Source: Paenibacillaceae bacterium
Lineage (GTDB): Bacteria; Bacillota; Bacilli; Paenibacillales; CANHGK01
DNA length: 45,286 nucleotides
NCBI GenBank assembly: GCA_947460235.1
Contig: CANHGK010000018.1
Span: 1 to 45,286 of the forward strand
Direction of reading: 5' to 3'
In this document: one piece after another, positions 986 through 45,286 of the stretch
Numbering within the stretch: position 1 is the first letter of the stretch
Layout: each line of letters starts with the position of its first letter
Position numbers and translations under genes: made by a program
Notes under the pieces: model-generated
The model's database searches: none
Told to the model about the DNA's origin: nothing
Seen by the model: the letters and a program-made list of their open reading frames with translations, nothing else

Positions 986-3900
986 TTGGTTCTTACACAG
1001 AAGAAGATCTCATTTTTAACGGCTGTTATGCTTGTCCTTGCAATGCTAGTATCTTTATTTTCTGGGCAATGGGTGCAAAAATCGTATGCGGCAAATTCAT
1101 TAACAATTTATTATAAGTCAGGTTACACAACGCCATATGTACACTATCATCCGCAAGGCGGGTCATGGACGACCGCTCCAGGTGTGGCGATGCAAAAATC
1201 TTTGGTAACTGGTTATTTTATTGCGACGATTAATGCGGGAAATGCGACCTTGGTCGATGTTGCATTCAACAATGGACAAGGGAATTGGGACAGTCGCAAT
1301 GGTGCGAACTATCAGTTTGGCATTGGGACATTTACTTTTGATGCGGGGAAAATCACATCCGGTGCGCCGTTGCCAGTTGCGACTGCTAGTCCGACAACTG
1401 TTCCGGCTACTCCGACCCCAACAGTGAAGGTAACAGCTACGCCGCTTGTAACAGCTACGCCGCTTGTAACAGCTACGCCGCTTGTAACAGCTACGCCGCT
1501 TGTAACGGCTACACCGCTTGTAACAGCTACGCCGCTTGTAACGGCTACACCGCTTGTAACAGCTACGCCAGTAGTAACGTCTACGCCCGTTCCGTCAGTA
1601 GACCCGACAGAAATTATCATCTATTATCGCAAAACTGGTGTGACAAAGCCGACAATTCAATATCGTCAAGTTGGTTCTGCGTATCGTTATAATTTTTATG
1701 GAACATGGACCGATGAACCTGGAGTTCCAATGTTTCCGGCAGAAGTTCCGGGATTTTTCAAAGTGAAAATCAACACATTATCTCAACTCGTCTCTGGTAC
1801 GTATACGTCGATCGATGCGATGTTCTATAACAATAATGGCCAAACCGATGGCACGCAATATTCAATTTTACAAGGAAATACGATCACGATCGATAATGGG
1901 GTGCAAAAAGTCGGAGCGCCAACGAACAATCGTACCGTGATTTATTACAAATCATCTGGTGGAACAAAAATAAAATATCGCCTAACTGGTGGTGATTGGA
2001 TTTCACAACCAGTTGCGTTAGATGCGTCTGATTATGCGGGATATCAACTTGCAACGATCGATACAGGAGCAGCAACATCGGTTGCGGAAGCGGCATTTGT
2101 GAATCCAGCAGGGGTATGGGACAACAATAAAAATGTAAATTATACGTTTCAAAATGGCATTTATACACTTGATGGTGGCGTCTTGAAACTAGGTACGCCT
2201 ACGACGGCGAATGAAATGACGATTTATTATAAAAAAACATCGACATCCGCATATATTCATTTCCGCTTGAATGGTGGAGCATGGACGACGTCCCCAGGAT
2301 TACCAATGGTGAACGCCCCGGTTTCTGGCTATGCGAAAATTACTGTGCCACTTGGAACGTCAAGTGGGCTAGAAGCTGTGTTTAATAATGGTGCTGGGGT
2401 TTGGGACAATAATGGTGGGAAAAATTATTTGCTGAGTAAAGGGACAACGATCATTTCAGGAGCGACGGTTACGAACGGGGTTCCGGTTGTGAAATCGGTT
2501 CAGGCGTCGCCATCTTCGTTACAACTTGGCCAAGGTGCAAGTGCACAATTGCAAATCAATGCGACAGATGTGATGGGTGTATATGATGCGTCGGCGAATA
2601 CTACTTTTGTTTCCAGTAATTCGAATTCGCTTCGTGTAGATTCTCGCGGATATTGTATTGCCGTTCAACCGGGTACTGGTGTTGTGACTGCAAAATTAGG
2701 AACATTTACCTTATCAATTCCGTTCACGGTGACCGCACCTGAACTTCAAGGTTGGTCATTCGTTTCGGATATCAATCCTTTAATACTCACAAAAGGTGAG
2801 CAATCAAAACTTGGTATTTTTGGTCACTTCTCCAACGGTGTAAGAGAGATTTCTAATGAAATCAGTTACAGTACAAGTAATTCTTCCGTGGCTGCGATTG
2901 ATGCGGCGGGAACCATTACGGCAAAATCTGCGGGTTTTTCGATCATTACGTTACGTTCAGGGACGCGAACGAAAACAATTACAGTGGTCGTGAATGAAGT
3001 AAAAATCATGAAATTTAGCCCAGTTTCGTTAACGATTGGCGAAGGGTTAAATGGTTATAGCACACTTTCGGCATTGTTAACTGATGGTAGTGCCAAGGAA
3101 TATATTGGAACAGGTGTGCGCTATGAATCCAATCATCCTGAAATTGCTACGGTTGATGCGTATGGTTCCGTGACTGGAGTGAAACCAGGTCAAGCCACGA
3201 TTACAGCAACCTATGGCGGAAAAACGTGTTCTTTTTCGGTCGCGATCACTCGGCTCCTTCGTTTAGAAGCGTCGCCTGCGAACATTACTGTCGGCGAAGG
3301 ATCGACAAACGGTGGGTATTTTACGGTGAATGGTATTTATGAAGATGGCACAACCCAATCGATTGGAAATGCGGTGTTTACTTCGAATCAAACCGGAATC
3401 GCAGAGGTTTTGAATGGAAATATGATCAAAGGGATATCCAAAGGAACGACGGCGATTCATGTGAAGTTCGGCGCGCAAACGCTGGATGTGCCTGTTGCCG
3501 TGAAAGCGTTAGTGTCACTTGAAGTGCCAGATATTAAACTTTATGAAGCGAATTATGCTACGCCAAATTTGACGATGCACTATGAAGATGGATCGACAGA
3601 TTCGACGATGTATGGATTTGAAATTCAATCGTTGAATCCTGCGGTCGTCAATGTAGTATATGGATCCACGGTTTATGGGGTAAAAGCAGGAAATACCCAA
3701 GTTCGCATCAATTATTCAGGCAAAAATGTGATCGTTCCCGTACAAGTCAGCGGTTTGGTATCAATTAAAATTACGCCAGATCCACTGGTGTTAAAAATGT
3801 TTGTGGCGAATTCGCTGAGTACATTTGGGACGTATGATGATGGCACCGTACAAAGTTTGTATTATAATGATGCGTTTACGTATCAAGTGGCAAATCCTGA

Positions 3901-39240: not shown

Positions 39241-40549
39241 GTGTAAATGCAAATAAGGCTTCTCATGTAGAGGAAAGCGTTAGTTTATTGTTGTGAACAT
39301 CTCTTGTAGTTCAGCATGTGCTTGATCAAATCCGATGTGGCAGCGTGTTGTAAAACGTTGGTTGTACCCCTCAAACTGTGAAACTAGAAACTTCTCTAAC
39401 GCTTCTTCGTTTGGAAATTGCTCTTTTCGTTTGGTGTACTTTTTGATTTGTTTGTTGAACGATTCAATCAAATTCGTAGAATAAATACTTCTCCAAATTG
39501 ATTTAGGAAAGCTGTAGAACGTAAACAGATATTCGTTTTCTTTTAGGGATTTGACGACTTTCGGATAAACAGGTTTCCACTTGTCGCAAAACGTTTTAAG
39601 CGCTTCTCGACCAGCCTTTTCGTCTTCTGCGCGGTATACGGATTTGAAATCATCGCAGATTTCACCGCGATCGGATACACGCACTTTATGTGCAATCGAA
39701 CGTGCAACGTGTACGCAGCATGTCTGGAATTTGGCTTTTGGATATACTTGCTCAATTGCAGATGCAATGCCAGATAATCCATCTGAAATAAATAGCAACA
39801 CGTCTTCCGTGCCGCGTGCGCGTACATCCTGTAATAACTCATGCCAAACAAAGGCAGATTCTGTCGGTGCAATCGTATAGGTTAGCACTTCTTTTGATCC
39901 ATCTTCACGGATACCAACGGCTAGATATACGGCTTCTTTAGAGACGGTTTCACGCTTCACAGCAATGAAAGTGGCATCAATATAAACACAAACGTAACGC
40001 TTCTCTAGCGTCCGTTTCGCGAAGGCATCAACGTGCTGAGCCATCACTTTCGTCATGTTAGAGACCGTTTGCGGCGTGTAATGATGTCCGTACATTTTCT
40101 CAATCAGATCAGAAATCTCGGTCATCGTAACACCTTTTTGAAACATGTGAATCACGAAGGATTCTAAGGTATCGTTCGAACGCTTGTAAGGCGCTACCGT
40201 CTGTTGTTTGAACTCTCCGTTGCGATCGCGCGGGATATTGAGCTGAAGATCGCCATATTCGGTATGAAGCGTACGCGAGTACCCGCCATTACGAGAGTTT
40301 CCAGAATTAAAACCAATTCGATCGTACTTTTCATAATCAAGAAATGCAGTTAATTCCGTTTCTAATAAGTGATTCATGGCTATTTCAAGGTGTGAGCGAA
40401 ATACTTCTGTTACGTCCTGTTTTGTGACTAGAGCTTGAACTAAATCTGATGTAAGATGATTCATGGGAAGACCTCTTTCTGTGAATGGTGTTGTGGTGAC
40501 TTCATTCTACAAGAAAAGGTCTTCCTTTTTGCTATTCATCTATTTACAC
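39241..40549 (-). mobile_element. IS256-family insertion sequence (approximate ends)
   Basis: The transposase gene is flanked by GTGTAAAT at 39241-39248 and its complement ATTTACAC at 40542-40549, oriented as inverted ends, with weaker matching further in. No convincing target duplication is visible at these limits, so the exact ends are uncertain. Confidence 0.7.
39280..40464 (-). CDS. IS256-family transposase
   Basis: 394 residues, full length for the family, with the ATG at 40464 behind AAAGAGG. The DDE triad is visible as Asp163 (YIDATFIAVK), Asp228 (FISDGLSGI) and Glu334 (TNLIESFNKQIKK). The conserved C/H segment KFQTCCVHVARSI lies between the second and third residues. Intact and probably capable of being expressed. 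Confidence 0.95.
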   Translation of the reverse strand: MNHLTSDLVQALVTKQDVTEVFRSHLEIAMNHLLETELTAFLDYEKYDRIGFNSGNSRNGGYSRTLHTEYGDLQLNIPRDRNGEFKQQTVAPYKRSNDTLESFVIHMFQKGVTMTEISDLIEKMYGHHYTPQTVSNMTKVMAQHVDAFAKRTLEKRYVCVYIDATFIAVKRETVSKEAVYLAVGIREDGSKEVLTYTIAPTESAFVWHELLQDVRARGTEDVLLFISDGLSGIASAIEQVYPKAKFQTCCVHVARSIAHKVRVSDRGEICDDFKSVYRAEDEKAGREALKTFCDKWKPVYPKVVKSLKENEYLFTFYSFPKSIWRSIYSTNLIESFNKQIKKYTKRKEQFPNEEALEKFLVSQFEGYNQRFTTRCHIGFDQAHAELQEMFTTIN

Positions 40550-40853
40550 AAGATATTTTACGCTCTCTTCAGAAGATAGAGAATCTGAATATTTTGAAGC
40601 AATAAATATAATACTTCAAACTATTTTAGGGGAAGAATGCTATGCTCAAGACATTCAATATGTAACCGTTTAAAAATGCCAGAGGATTTTGAAAAATATA
40701 TTACAATGATTGATTTACCAGATAATTTGAATTGGTATAAATCAAAGAATAGTCATTAATGAATCAAATAAATGAATCAATTTCATAATTGCTCTGACCG
40801 AGTTTTAGAAAAAGAACTCATTCACCGAAAATCATGAGTTTGATTTTTTGAAA
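40550..40853 (+). pseudogene. Unassigned gene debris between two insertion sequences
   Basis: Frame 40557-40673 encodes 38 residues (contains YFEAINIILQTILGEECYAQ) with no start; after its stop, ATG 40676-40759 encodes 27 residues (MPEDFEKYITMIDLPDNLNW and on). The two pieces could be one gene with a small indel around 40665-40676, its front end removed by the IS256-family element. I do not recognise the family. The remainder up to 40853 holds only a weak hairpin (actcat/atgagt, near 40818-40841). Confidence 0.4.
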
Positions 40854-42153
40854 TTAAGCTGCAAGCACATCCAATCGAGCGTTTAATCGATCTAGCGCAA
40901 GTTTGATTCCGTTGTACACCAGTGTGATGAGGTCAAATTGGAATTTGGCTCGTTTGCCGGTGCGATATCGAATCTGATTTAACCCGAAATACTGTTTCAA
41001 GTACGCGAATACTCGTTCAACGGAGGAGCGTTGTTTGAACAACTGTTTCCACCGTTCACTACCACGCGCTGGAGCACAGTATTTTCGTAAATCGGATGTG
41101 ATTTTGACCTTAAACACTTTTTGACACAGGCTATCGTGCGCTAACGGACAGGTTGAACATTCTTTTGGACGGCCGTACTTGATCGTTTGGTACTTCTGAT
41201 CATAGCTATCGTATCGATAGGAATGTTCCCGGACGCAAGTCGGTGCAAAATGTTCGTCAAATCCAACCATTTCTGGTTCCCGCCGTTTGTTATATGCGAT
41301 GATTCCGTGTGCGTTCATCTCTAATATCTGTGCGTAGATTGGTTCATGATCGTATCCGGCATCCAATATCCCATAGCGGATGACATGGTTGGGAAATCGC
41401 GTTTGGATTTGTTTGAGTAACGGAATTGCTGCTTTCCCGTCATTTAGATTCCCGGAAGAAAGTAGCTGGCTAAGCACGTACTGACTTTTCGTTCCGACCG
41501 CAAGTTGAACTTTCTAGCCAAACCAGAAGACGTTTTTGCCTTGACTATTACACTTGATGCCCCATTTCGGGTCAATTGGCATCTGTTCAATTAGCGAATC
41601 GACGGTTTCGTCCAATTGATCTGCGATTTGTTTTTCATAGATTCCTTTTGCAGCATCGTCTGTTGCTTTCTGTTCTTGCAAAGTTGCTTGCGATGCTTTG
41701 GATTAACGTCCACGTTTCTTTGGTTGTTTTATTGGTTTCGTTTCTTTTTGCGGCGCTTGATCGCGTGCCTCAACATGAGTCGCATCAATGGCGACGGCAT
41801 CATCTGCAATAAAACCTTCATTCATTGCCGAGAGAACCAACGGATTGAACAACAAAGACAAACCATTGGACTGATTCAGCATCGTAACTAGGCGCGTGTA
41901 CGAAGATTCCGAAGGAATACGATCATTCAATGAAAAACCGCAATACCAACGAAACGCAACATCGGATTTCAGACGCTTCACCAAATCCGTAACAAAAGGG
42001 ATTCGTTCAACAATTTGTGCCATTTACGATTAGATCATCGCACGATAGTTGATCACTTCTGGCCGAACGGGGCGTTGATTTACGCAGCAAAACGAGCGCA
42101 GGTGTAATGTCGATCGTTGCAAAGATGAGTTCGAATCGATCTTTTTGATCCAT
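40854..42153 (-). pseudogene. IS1182-like transposase with two in-frame stops and an N-terminal frameshift
   Basis: From the ATG at 42023 to the stop at 40854 one minus-strand frame encodes a complete IS1182-type transposase except for TAA at about 41702-41700 (after PKKRGR) and TAG near 41516-41514 (after VFWFG). Upstream, 42153-42025 encodes the usual N-terminal piece (FELIFATIDITPALVLLRKS) in another frame. Visible motifs are AIDATHVEARDQAP, GILDAGYDHEPIY, CSTCPLAHDSLC and RSSVERVFAYLKQYFGLN. The element is dead unless the stops are suppressed. Confidence 0.88.
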
Positions 42154-42344: not shown

Positions 42345-42947
42345 ATGAATCTAGACATATTATCCAAGCGTTGGGCATTGGTCATTGCGCGGGAAAGTAA
42401 TCAACCTGAGCAAGAAGCTGTCATTGCTTTTGGATTGCATTTGGCTCTTCAATTTCTGATCAAAGGATTGTGGATTGGTTTGTGGATGTTGTTCGTTACA
42501 GAGCCAATTCATGTATTAAATATTGCCATTGCGTTTGGTCTGTCTCGGGCAATCATGGGTGGAGTTCACGCTCCAACATTTGTACGTTGCCAAGTGTGGT
42601 CATTGGGCACAATGGGAGTTGCCTGGTTCGCGGCACAAGCATCTAGCCAAGCTTACAGTAATGACTCCATTGCACAAATGAGTATTGCCTTTGTGATGAC
42701 CATTAGCATGATCGTATTTATTGTGAGCAAAGTACCCATCCGTTGGGGTGCAAGATCTTATTCGACTCGAAGAGTATTATGGAGTAAATGGCTTGCTTTT
42801 ATATGGCTTGTAACCATCACGTGCGGAATTGTGATTGGACAAGCTGGGGGCTTTATTTTTCAATGCGCGGTCGATTGTTTCATGGCAACATTTTTCGGTA
42901 TGTTGCTGAATGTGCAGCCAATCTCCAAATGGATGACCAAAAAATAA
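42345..42947 (+). CDS. agrB: AgrB-like peptide-processing membrane endopeptidase
   Basis: 200 residues, with the ATG preceded by ATGGAGGACTGA. The AgrB signature SRAIMGGVHAPTFVRC gives His75 and Cys82, almost the same positions as the catalytic pair of Staphylococcus AgrB. Five or so hydrophobic segments surround it. AgrB cleaves the AgrD tail and closes the peptide ring. The next small gene encodes an AgrD-like peptide, and the following two genes encode an AgrC-like sensor, so the order B-D-C is that of agr loci. Confidence 0.9.
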   Translation: MNLDILSKRWALVIARESNQPEQEAVIAFGLHLALQFLIKGLWIGLWMLFVTEPIHVLNIAIAFGLSRAIMGGVHAPTFVRCQVWSLGTMGVAWFAAQASSQAYSNDSIAQMSIAFVMTISMIVFIVSKVPIRWGARSYSTRRVLWSKWLAFIWLVTITCGIVIGQAGGFIFQCAVDCFMATFFGMLLNVQPISKWMTKK

Positions 42948-42968: not shown

Positions 42969-43097
42969 ATGTTTTTTCTGTTTAGTGTAATTGCGAAAGT
43001 GGTTACTGCATTGGCGCATAGTGGCGTGACAATGAATACTTTTGTTTGGGGTTATGAACCAGAAATACCGATACAATTACAAAAAAAGGGGGAATAA
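42969..43097 (+). CDS. agrD: AgrD-like autoinducer precursor without cysteine
   Basis: A 42-residue frame from the ATG at 42969 (GGGG seven bases upstream; ATG 42963 is possible). It has the three-part AgrD layout: an amphipathic leader (FFLFSVIAKVVTALAHS), a core, and an acidic tail YEPEIPIQL of the type recognised by AgrB (compare YEPKSP in Listeria AgrD). Aligning the tail places the five-residue ring as TFVWG, residues 24-28, with Thr24 at the position of the ring-forming Cys. There is no Cys anywhere in the peptide, so a lactone rather than a thiolactone is expected. Ser18 is too far out for the usual five-residue ring. Confidence 0.8.
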   Translation: MFFLFSVIAKVVTALAHSGVTMNTFVWGYEPEIPIQLQKKGE

Positions 43098-43100
43098 GTA

Positions 43101-43568
43101 GTGGATTTCGGAAAAATATTTTATGCACTGACAATTGTTTTGGATAGCTTTTTGATTTTTGCGATTGGTTTGAAGTTGGTCGATCCAAGAAATAGTTTAC
43201 GAACCTCAAAATTTTGGTTAGCAATCGGAATTTTCAGTACGTTAATTCTATTCGAGCGCTTCATACTAAATGAGTCATTGGCACAGTTGATGGGTATAGT
43301 AAATCTGGGGCTTTATTTGGTCTTTTTCTTGGTGGTCGCAGATGGCAGTATGAAACGAAAGTATTTGGCTTATTTGATCATGATTGTTACACTGATTGCG
43401 TCCGAAATAGTTGCTGGTGTGGGGTATTCGTTTTTTACAGGTTTCGATTTAGGGAAACAATTAACTGATTTCACGATTCGTGCACAAATTACATTGTTGG
43501 CAAATGTCGTGAAATTCGTTGTGTTGGTCATTGTAATCAGATGGAAAGTCCGAGCGTTGGAGAGATAG
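43101..43568 (+). CDS. Membrane sensor part of a split AgrC-like receptor
   Basis: 155 residues from a GTG with AAGGGGG eight bases upstream. Five hydrophobic segments fill almost the whole protein (for example YALTIVLDSFLIFAIGL at the start). It ends at a TAG and lies in the same frame as the following kinase gene, with only CAT GCT between that TAG and the next ATG. Together they would make about 445 residues with a multi-span N-terminus and a kinase C-terminus, the size of a normal AgrC. It may be a separate subunit or the front of an interrupted gene. Confidence 0.7.
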   Translation: MDFGKIFYALTIVLDSFLIFAIGLKLVDPRNSLRTSKFWLAIGIFSTLILFERFILNESLAQLMGIVNLGLYLVFFLVVADGSMKRKYLAYLIMIVTLIASEIVAGVGYSFFTGFDLGKQLTDFTIRAQITLLANVVKFVVLVIVIRWKVRALER

Positions 43569-43574
43569 CATGCT

Positions 43575-44438
43575 ATGAAACATCATATTAAAAAGTTTCC
43601 TTGGTTAGAAACATTCTTAGCTTTAGGGGTAGTTGCTGTCGCTCAATTAATAATGAGTGAGTATATATTGAAAAATACATTGAGTAAAGCGTCAGCATTA
43701 ACGATCATAGCGATTATTGTTGCTCAGGTACTAATCGTTTGGGTAATGATTTCGATGCAAAAAATTCGTGCAAATCAACAGGAGTTGAATATTCAATCAG
43801 AACAAATTCGACAGATTGAGTCACTTTATGCTTCATTTCGCGCGGAGCGTCACGACCTCATCAATCACGTGCAGACAATATACGGATTTTTGTATGCCAA
43901 CAATATTGAACAAGCGAGATCCTATTTAAAAGAATTAAGTGGAGATATGAAGGCGATCAATGATATTTTATTGCCGAATAATCCTTCTTTAAGTGCGATG
44001 TTGCAAGTGAAATCTGCAGAAGCTTCTCGTAAAGGCATTGAATTGGATGTTGCGTTAGAAGATTCCTTAGTGAGTGTCAGTTGGACTTCAACGGAAGGAA
44101 ATACAGTCATTGGGAACATCATCAATAATGCAATCGAAGCCTTTGAAATGGATCCGTTGATCAAAAATAAACGGATTTGGATTCGGTCCCATCGAATTCA
44201 AAATGAGATGCTTGAAATCGTGGTCGGGAATAGTGGTCCATTAATTGAAGAAAATATGCTGTCTAAATTAAAAGATACTGGTGTATCGAGTAAAAAAGGT
44301 CACAGCGGGATTGGATTAGCATCTGTCGCCGATATTGTTTCGCGTAATGGTGGAACATTCGAAATCACAAGCAATGCGATGAATGGGACATGTTTTACCA
44401 TTCGAATGTATGCGAACGAAGTTAGGAAAATTGGTTGA
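43575..44438 (+). CDS. agrC: AgrC-like sensor histidine kinase (GHKL)
   Basis: 287 residues, with the ATG ten bases after GGAGAG. Two hydrophobic segments (about 12-30 and 40-60) and a coiled coil (62-90) lead to the phospho-acceptor His93 in FRAERHDLINHVQTIYG, the H-box of the AgrC-type kinases. The ATP-binding domain has the N-box GNIINNAIEAFE, a GNSGPLI loop and the G-box GHSGIGLASVADIV. It would sense the mature peptide with the membrane protein encoded immediately upstream. No AgrA response regulator gene follows before the terminator. Confidence 0.9.
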   Translation: MKHHIKKFPWLETFLALGVVAVAQLIMSEYILKNTLSKASALTIIAIIVAQVLIVWVMISMQKIRANQQELNIQSEQIRQIESLYASFRAERHDLINHVQTIYGFLYANNIEQARSYLKELSGDMKAINDILLPNNPSLSAMLQVKSAEASRKGIELDVALEDSLVSVSWTSTEGNTVIGNIINNAIEAFEMDPLIKNKRIWIRSHRIQNEMLEIVVGNSGPLIEENMLSKLKDTGVSSKKGHSGIGLASVADIVSRNGGTFEITSNAMNGTCFTIRMYANEVRKIG

Positions 44439-44671
44439 TGCATCATGTTTCAAAAAGCAATTGAAGTTCGGATAATCGTGGGCTTGAGGGAACAACGTTT
44501 CGGATGTTGTTCACCGGTATGATCCTATCGGAAAAAAATGAAAAAAGCTTTTCGGTCAGTAAAAAAACTGATCGAAAAGCTTTTTTCATTCCATCACAAA
44601 CCTGTGACCCGTATCCGTTTTGATGGACAGTCCAGAGTGAGATAAACTTACTATGGAGGGGGCGGGTTTAA
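44439..44671. other. Intergenic region between agrC and the IS3-family element
   Basis: Only short frames without ribosome binding sites occur here. The region contains the strong hairpin at 44537-44590 and, near 44624-44633, TGGACAGTCC, which may belong to the left end of the insertion sequence. Confidence 0.5.
44537..44590. terminator. Very long bidirectional terminator
   Basis: A 24-base arm (44537-44560) pairs with 44567-44590, with a single G-T pair and an A6 loop. The outer part is A-rich on one side and T-rich on the other. It ends the agr locus about 100 bases after agrC and may also stop transcription from the insertion sequence. Confidence 0.9.
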
Positions 44672-44998
44672 ATGGGTACCGAAGGACAACGATATATCAG
44701 TGAATTTAAGGCTGAAGTAATTCGATCGATTAAAGAAAACGGACGCTCGGTAACCGGCATTTGCAAAGATCTAGGTGTAAGTGAACAAACCATCTATCGT
44801 TGGTTAAGTGAAGATAGACAACCTGAACCTAGCGATGACAAGAAGCGAATTGCTGAACTGGAAGAACAACTCAAACAAGAAAAGCGAAAAACAGCAGATC
44901 TCGAAGATTCGGTAAACATCTTAAAAAAGGCAACCGCGCTCACGAGTTTTATAAAAACTCGTGACGCCATTTTTGCAAATCAACAACACCGGAAATGA
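44672..44998 (+). CDS. IS3-family transposase OrfA
   Basis: 108 residues, with the ATG behind GGAGGGGG. An N-terminal helix-turn-helix of the HTH_8 type (YISEFKAEVIRSIKENGRSV, then GVSEQTIYRWLSED) is followed by a leucine-rich coiled coil (KRIAELEEQLKQEKRK) that mediates OrfA/OrfB interaction. It ends after ILKKATALTSFIKTRDAIFA with a non-standard tail. An A_AAA_AAG slippery heptamer lies in frame at 44923-44929. Confidence 0.92.
   Translation: MGTEGQRYISEFKAEVIRSIKENGRSVTGICKDLGVSEQTIYRWLSEDRQPEPSDDKKRIAELEEQLKQEKRKTADLEDSVNILKKATALTSFIKTRDAIFANQQHRK
44923..44963 (+). promoter_or_regulatory. Frameshift heptamer and stem-loop in IS3 orfA
   Basis: AAAAAAG at 44923-44929 is in the A_AAA_AAG phase that supports -1 ribosomal frameshifting in IS3-family elements. 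A 10-bp stem (cacgagtttt / aaaactcgtg, within 44941-44963) follows 11 bases later, a suitable stimulatory structure. The -1 frame nevertheless meets TGA near 44962. Confidence 0.55.
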
Positions 44999-45001
44999 TC
45001 T

Positions 45002-45286
45002 ATGCGCTCGTTTTTGAGCTCAGTTCCGAGCATTCGGTGGCCTAGCGCATTTGTGAACCATAAATGCGCGGGGATGTGCAATTTATTCAAAATCGCTCGG
45101 AGCGGATTTTATCATTGGCTACACAAAAAACCTGGAGAACGTGCAGAATCCAATCAAAAATTACTTCAATTGATCAAAAAATCGCACGATCAGAGCGATG
45201 GTAGATATGGAATAGATAAAATTCTACGTGACGTACACGAAAAGATGTCATGTAGTCGCGGTCGTGTTTATCGAATCATGAAGCAA
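45002..45286 (+). CDS. IS3-family transposase OrfB, N-terminal part, probably disrupted
   Basis: The frame containing ARSGFYHWL and LLQLIKKSHDQSDGRYGIDK is the HTH_21 region of OrfB, including SRGRVYRIMKQ at the window edge. It is open from ATG 45002, but the first about 24 residues do not look like OrfB. The normal opening (MIYALVFELSSEHSV, from ATG 44995 overlapping the orfA stop) is in a different frame that stops at 45043. An indel between about 45040 and 45074 would explain this. The DDE core lies beyond the window. Confidence 0.65.
   Translation, partial: MRSFLSSVPSIRWPSAFVNHKCAGMCNLFKIARSGFYHWLHKKPGERAESNQKLLQLIKKSHDQSDGRYGIDKILRDVHEKMSCSRGRVYRIMKQ

Follow-up and report, generated by a model that had tools for sequence, protein, structure and literature searches.

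The 45,286-nucleotide stretch of a Paenibacillaceae bacterium analysed here (the window) carries an agrB gene with an agrD directly behind it, and this AgrD has threonine in the column that holds the ring-closing residue of the family. That threonine recurs in other AgrDs, the relatives of the system are of the serine type, and the genes run in the order agrB, agrD, membrane-protein ORF and histidine kinase. We consider it probable that they form a functional agr-type quorum-sensing operon. AgrB, through C82 with H75, would cleave AgrD between Gly28 and Tyr29 and retain AgrD(1-28) in a thioester linkage, which the Thr24 hydroxyl would attack to close the five-residue lactone TFVWG; a second protease would trim the leader, and a split AgrC, consisting of a 155 aa membrane sensor and a 287 aa kinase, would read the signal. 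Cleavage, lactone formation, tail length and receptor pairing are each inferred; the features are as follows.

42345..42947, + strand: agrB, 200 aa membrane cysteine peptidase (PF04647, catalytic motif, invariant columns, SD-like GGAGG)
42969..43097, + strand: agrD, 42 aa pro-signal with an N-terminal leader in residues 1-23, T24-F-V-W-G28 as the predicted ring and Y29-EPEIPIQLQKKGE as the C-terminal tail (TIGR04223 match, ring column, alignment with Ser-type sisters)
43038..43040, + strand: Thr24 codon ACT, for the residue predicted to close the ring; the relative G002 has TCT (Ser) here
43101..43568, + strand: 155 aa protein, five membrane spans predicted from hydropathy; putative sensor half of a split AgrC
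43575..44438, + strand: histidine kinase of 287 aa with the Pfam domains SPOB_a and HATPase_c, probably the kinase part of a split AgrC
44530..44592, + strand: terminator-like hairpin with a T-rich 3' arm (fold -34.4 kcal/mol, z -10.9)

The AgrB-AgrD pair and its operon

The agrD ORF runs from ATG to TAA and encodes MFFLFSVIAKVVTALAHSGVTMNTFVWGYEPEIPIQLQKKGE, 42 residues with no cysteine among them. Although the usual description of an AgrD names Cys or Ser as the ring closer and this peptide has Thr24, it still passes the curated cut-off of NCBIfam TIGR04223 (27.3 bits against 19, E 2.9e-6), a model that does not require either residue. The leader is hydrophobic, with a helical moment of about 0.3, and the C-terminal tail, YEPEIPIQLQKKGE, fits the acidic, proline-containing pattern of the family. 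The adjoining PF04647 gene ends 21 bases upstream (52.1 bits, cut-off 23), and its product keeps the catalytic motif GGxHA....C intact as GGVHAPTFVRC, including H75 and C82, together with R68 and A76; in a three-sequence alignment of AgrBs, R68, G72, G73, H75 and C82 are invariant. By profile and context, then, the peptide is a genuine AgrD, and the ORF, both family matches and the motif confirm the preliminary description of a cysteine-free, 42-residue AgrD-like peptide after an AgrB with a His75/Cys82 pair. A search for PDB relatives of AgrB or AgrD by sequence returned none.

An SD-like GGAGG lies directly upstream of agrB, agrD has an SD-like site just upstream as well, and all four genes of the operon (agrB, agrD, the 155 aa ORF and the kinase gene) are open and have such sites. 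The hairpin at 44530..44592 is likely the terminator of this unit. The layout departs from the classical agrBDCA: the sensor-like ORF is not fused to the kinase ORF, and no response regulator or AgrA was found from agrB to the terminator. Insertion sequences flank the operon at 39280-42023 (-) and 44672-45286 (+); they comprise a transposase of the Mutator family, fragments of a DDE transposase, probably broken since DUF772 and DDE_Tnp_1 fall in separate ORFs, and, where the contig ends, an IS3-like element.

Threonine in the ring-closing column

AgrDs from the window's order, class and phylum (Bacillota) were gathered with TIGR04223, profile searches being used because extraction by regular expression was too noisy, and were aligned on a profile anchored on the P..P motif. 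With the unmasked profile the ring column held C 118, S 76 and T 3 in a first count, and C 140, S 97 and T 4 (n=241) after further loci had been added. Since the profile should favour neither Cys nor Ser, the column was masked in the model, which gave C 139, S 103, T 4 and no other residue among 246 distinct AgrDs; the sampled AgrDs were initially found with a Cys/Ser-informed model, so that other ring residues may be under-sampled in these counts. Two of the four Thr-type AgrDs come from the window's own genome, and the others from genomes G756 and G872.

Throughout the 246, the five-residue ring is followed by Y, H, D, N or G and then mostly by Q/E-P. The window's AgrD falls into this frame as T-FVWG-Y-E-P, the conserved Tyr/His-Glu/Gln-Pro cleavage site lying five residues after Thr24, and within the frame only Thr24 can occupy the ring place. 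The preliminary description had put Thr24 there by alignment with Listeria, which the larger alignment upholds. Its further prediction of a five-residue ring TFVWG closed by Thr24 is now well supported, at the level of sequence, by column and spacing, by a second Thr-type AgrD, by Ser-type sisters and by G756; the check it had proposed, a search for Thr in AgrD homologues beside an AgrB, turned up Thr in the second local locus, which contains an AgrB, and in G756, directly behind one.

A probable split receptor

The 287 aa kinase is 37% identical, over 264 aligned positions, to the kinase part of AgrC2 from the genome's second agr locus. The 155 aa protein matched a profile of same-position ORFs in other agr loci weakly (E 5e-5, in a three-sequence search with composition bias), matched no Pfam family, and in a pairwise comparison with AgrC2 gave no significant match. 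Because of this difference in the matches, the kinase is likely the kinase half of a split AgrC, and the 155 aa protein is tentatively taken as its sensor half.

In many agr loci the fused AgrC is replaced by two separate ORFs, the first for a membrane protein of roughly 140-170 aa and the next for a kinase of roughly 280 aa, for example at 43101-44438 of the window, 2582-3899 (-) of L259, 4146-5420 of L260 and 1758-3550 of L037. The idea that a split AgrC goes with a Thr-type AgrD was rejected, since the order agrB-agrD-membrane ORF-kinase is also common with Cys-type AgrDs. The kinase behind the membrane ORF in G002 (426 aa) seems by eye to be of another type, that of the NarL system. Many loci of the window's order (L013, L014, L017, L029 and others) have a protein of about 125-135 aa, LytTR-like by eye, right after agrD and no AgrC at that place.

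A second agr locus and the origin of the threonine

The genome's second agr locus (L036, 2483-5637, -) contains a kinase of 475 aa, the AgrD MKKVMTFVGNALSLLAVSGVGINTSFWLHEPEIPDVLVKDSE, a kinase of 488 aa and an AgrB of 214 aa; two fused AgrC-like kinases thus flank one AgrD, and no response regulator adjoins. This AgrD likewise has Thr in the ring column, with Ser next to it (NTSFWL-HEPEIP), and since Ser25 follows Thr24 a four-residue ring through Ser25 is conceivable there. The two local AgrBs are only 38-39% identical to each other, which marks the two copies as old. As the second locus also encodes a Thr-type AgrD, the threonine of the window is neither a sequencing error nor a lone recent mutation. 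The preliminary description had allowed for a recent mutant among homologues with Cys or Ser: Ser is indeed what the nearest homologues carry, but the lone mutant is not borne out. The genome's third AgrD-like hit (C31, E 0.47) was dismissed as spurious.

Outside the genome, the nearest AgrBs to both local copies are Ser-type. A tree of 215 AgrBs groups the two copies with G002 at a support of 96, the Ser-type G002 clustering with the second local copy at weak support, and the next groups outward contain only Ser-type members, at mixed support. The sister AgrDs (NS-WWTS-YEPEIP, NS-WFVS-YQPEIP and NS-WFFF-HEPKLP) align without gaps with NT-FVWG-YEPEIP, and the ring codons of the window and G002 differ by a single base. 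Given the Ser-type neighbours of both local AgrBs in the tree, a replacement of Ser by Thr is the most likely course in the window's lineage; Thr may have been gained once, before the local copies split, or twice. The window's genome is the only representative of its family in the sample. Profile searches with the AgrB alignment returned only the already known G002 locus from the genome contigs and no related loci from the viral contigs; the plasmid search gave no AgrB and a single AgrD match, by chance.

In G756 the Thr-type AgrD (AT-GFWS-YQPEVP) lies directly behind the only AgrB of that genome, whose nearest AgrBs are Cys-type and whose relatives are mainly so, pointing to a separate origin in a distant lineage. 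The Thr-type AgrD of G872 (AT-TIAA-YQPEVP) has no AgrB beside it; it is found at about 4042-4165 of L260 with a membrane ORF and a kinase, and the two AgrBs of G872 lie elsewhere, each beside its own AgrD. With the threonine of G756 among Cys-type AgrBs and the local threonines among Ser-type ones, the tree suggests that Thr most likely arose at least twice. We somewhat favour the view that Thr-closed lactone AIPs constitute a third recurrent type of agr signal beside thiolactones and Ser lactones, with at least two origins (from Ser here, and separately in G756) and with AgrBs that accept a secondary alcohol.

Alternative readings

Exchange of a thioester for an oxoester is energetically downhill; the threonine hydroxyl, hindered and weakly nucleophilic, could lose out to hydrolysis of the thioester. 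AgrB has been proposed to form a thioester acyl-enzyme through its Cys, and AgrD's ring residue to attack this intermediate (PMC4979651); AgrB removes the C-terminal tail of AgrD and closes the ring while other proteases trim the leader (PMC10196373). Should the leader be cut right before Thr24, the ring closed by Thr24 could undergo an O-to-N acyl shift and leave homodetic cyclo(TFVWG) as the lasting signal. In Listeria, five-residue AIPs that lack a tail do convert to homodetic peptides, and when a synthetic lactone analogue was kept at pH 7 for 22 h, 48% of it rearranged and 36% hydrolysed (PMC11297923); the predicted ring of the window also has five residues, but any N-terminal tail before Thr24 would block the shift, and we regard this outcome as unlikely.

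We see a smaller chance still that the nucleophile has in effect been lost, AgrB cutting and the thioester being hydrolysed to a linear peptide, or that the system is decaying. Threonine is, after all, the weaker nucleophile and rare (4/246), the operon sits among insertion sequences, and no agrA was seen within it. Against decay, however, stand four open genes with SD-like sites and a strong terminator, and the occurrence of Thr in two diverged copies of one genome and in two further lineages; decay should moreover have left Ala, Gly, Asn and the like in the ring column, where the residue that is not Cys or Ser is always Thr. It is very improbable that Ser18 or Thr21 closes the ring, or that cleavage elsewhere produces a larger one. 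Ring size does vary in known systems, with nine residues in Enterococcus faecalis and six in C. acetobutylicum (PMC4916163), but columns -6 and -3 do not keep Cys, Ser or Thr, whereas column 0 does so without exception in all 246 AgrDs, and the Ser-type sisters align gap-free at Thr24. The five-residue lactone closed by Thr24 is the reading that we retain.

Significance and comparison with known systems

The Thr-type AgrD probably represents a rare, recurrent and functional threonine variant of the lactone AIPs; five-residue Ser lactones being known, it adds a rare variant to an established kind and is not a new system. The distinct signal class announced in the preliminary description was overstated, since oxo-lactone AIPs are known and threonine differs from serine by one methyl group. 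If the proposal is true, AgrB esterifies a secondary alcohol, which would widen the chemistry of agr signals and of a compact membrane cyclase, and the Ser/Thr swap would offer a clean natural experiment on the limits of AgrB. Oxo-lactones would escape AIP searches that trap thiolactones. Our limited literature search met no report of a Thr-type AgrD, only Cys and Ser being named as ring residues, for which reason Thr-type signals would be overlooked.

In E. faecalis, fsrD lies within fsrB and the ring of FsrD/GBAP is closed by Ser. This signal resembles ours as a hydroxyl-closed lactone from an AgrB relative, a Ser or oxo-lactone having been reported for GBAP (PMC3673130), and differs by its nine-residue ring against the predicted five. 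The AIP of Staphylococcus intermedius/pseudintermedius is likewise an agr lactone with a hydroxyl residue in place of Cys; unlike ours it carries Ser, is a nine-residue signal with an exocyclic tail and belongs to a staphylococcal agrBDCA (PMC3673130). The preliminary description rightly cited the Ser lactone of the S. intermedius group, but incompletely: Ser occupies 103/246 ring positions in the sample, and Ser or oxo-lactones have also been reported from E. faecalis GBAP (PMC3673130) and from Clostridium thermocellum (PMC5322536).

The closest AgrBs found belong to agr loci of the Ser type in the same class (L079, L080, L085, L086 and L095) and to the MAG Bacillales RE-18aug17-241 (L005/L056), which share the AgrD layout N-S-xxxx-Y/H-E/Q-P and differ by Ser at the ring column. 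Among characterized signals, the C. thermocellum AgrD-type pentapeptide, confirmed by LC-MS/MS, is a five-residue oxo-lactone with Tyr after the predicted cleavage point and a conserved Pro motif, as in the window, but its ring is closed by Ser and its AgrD is not beside an agr operon (PMC5322536). Because this Ser lactone is documented, the ring size, cleavage context and ester chemistry proposed here all have a precedent, and the novel element would be the secondary alcohol.
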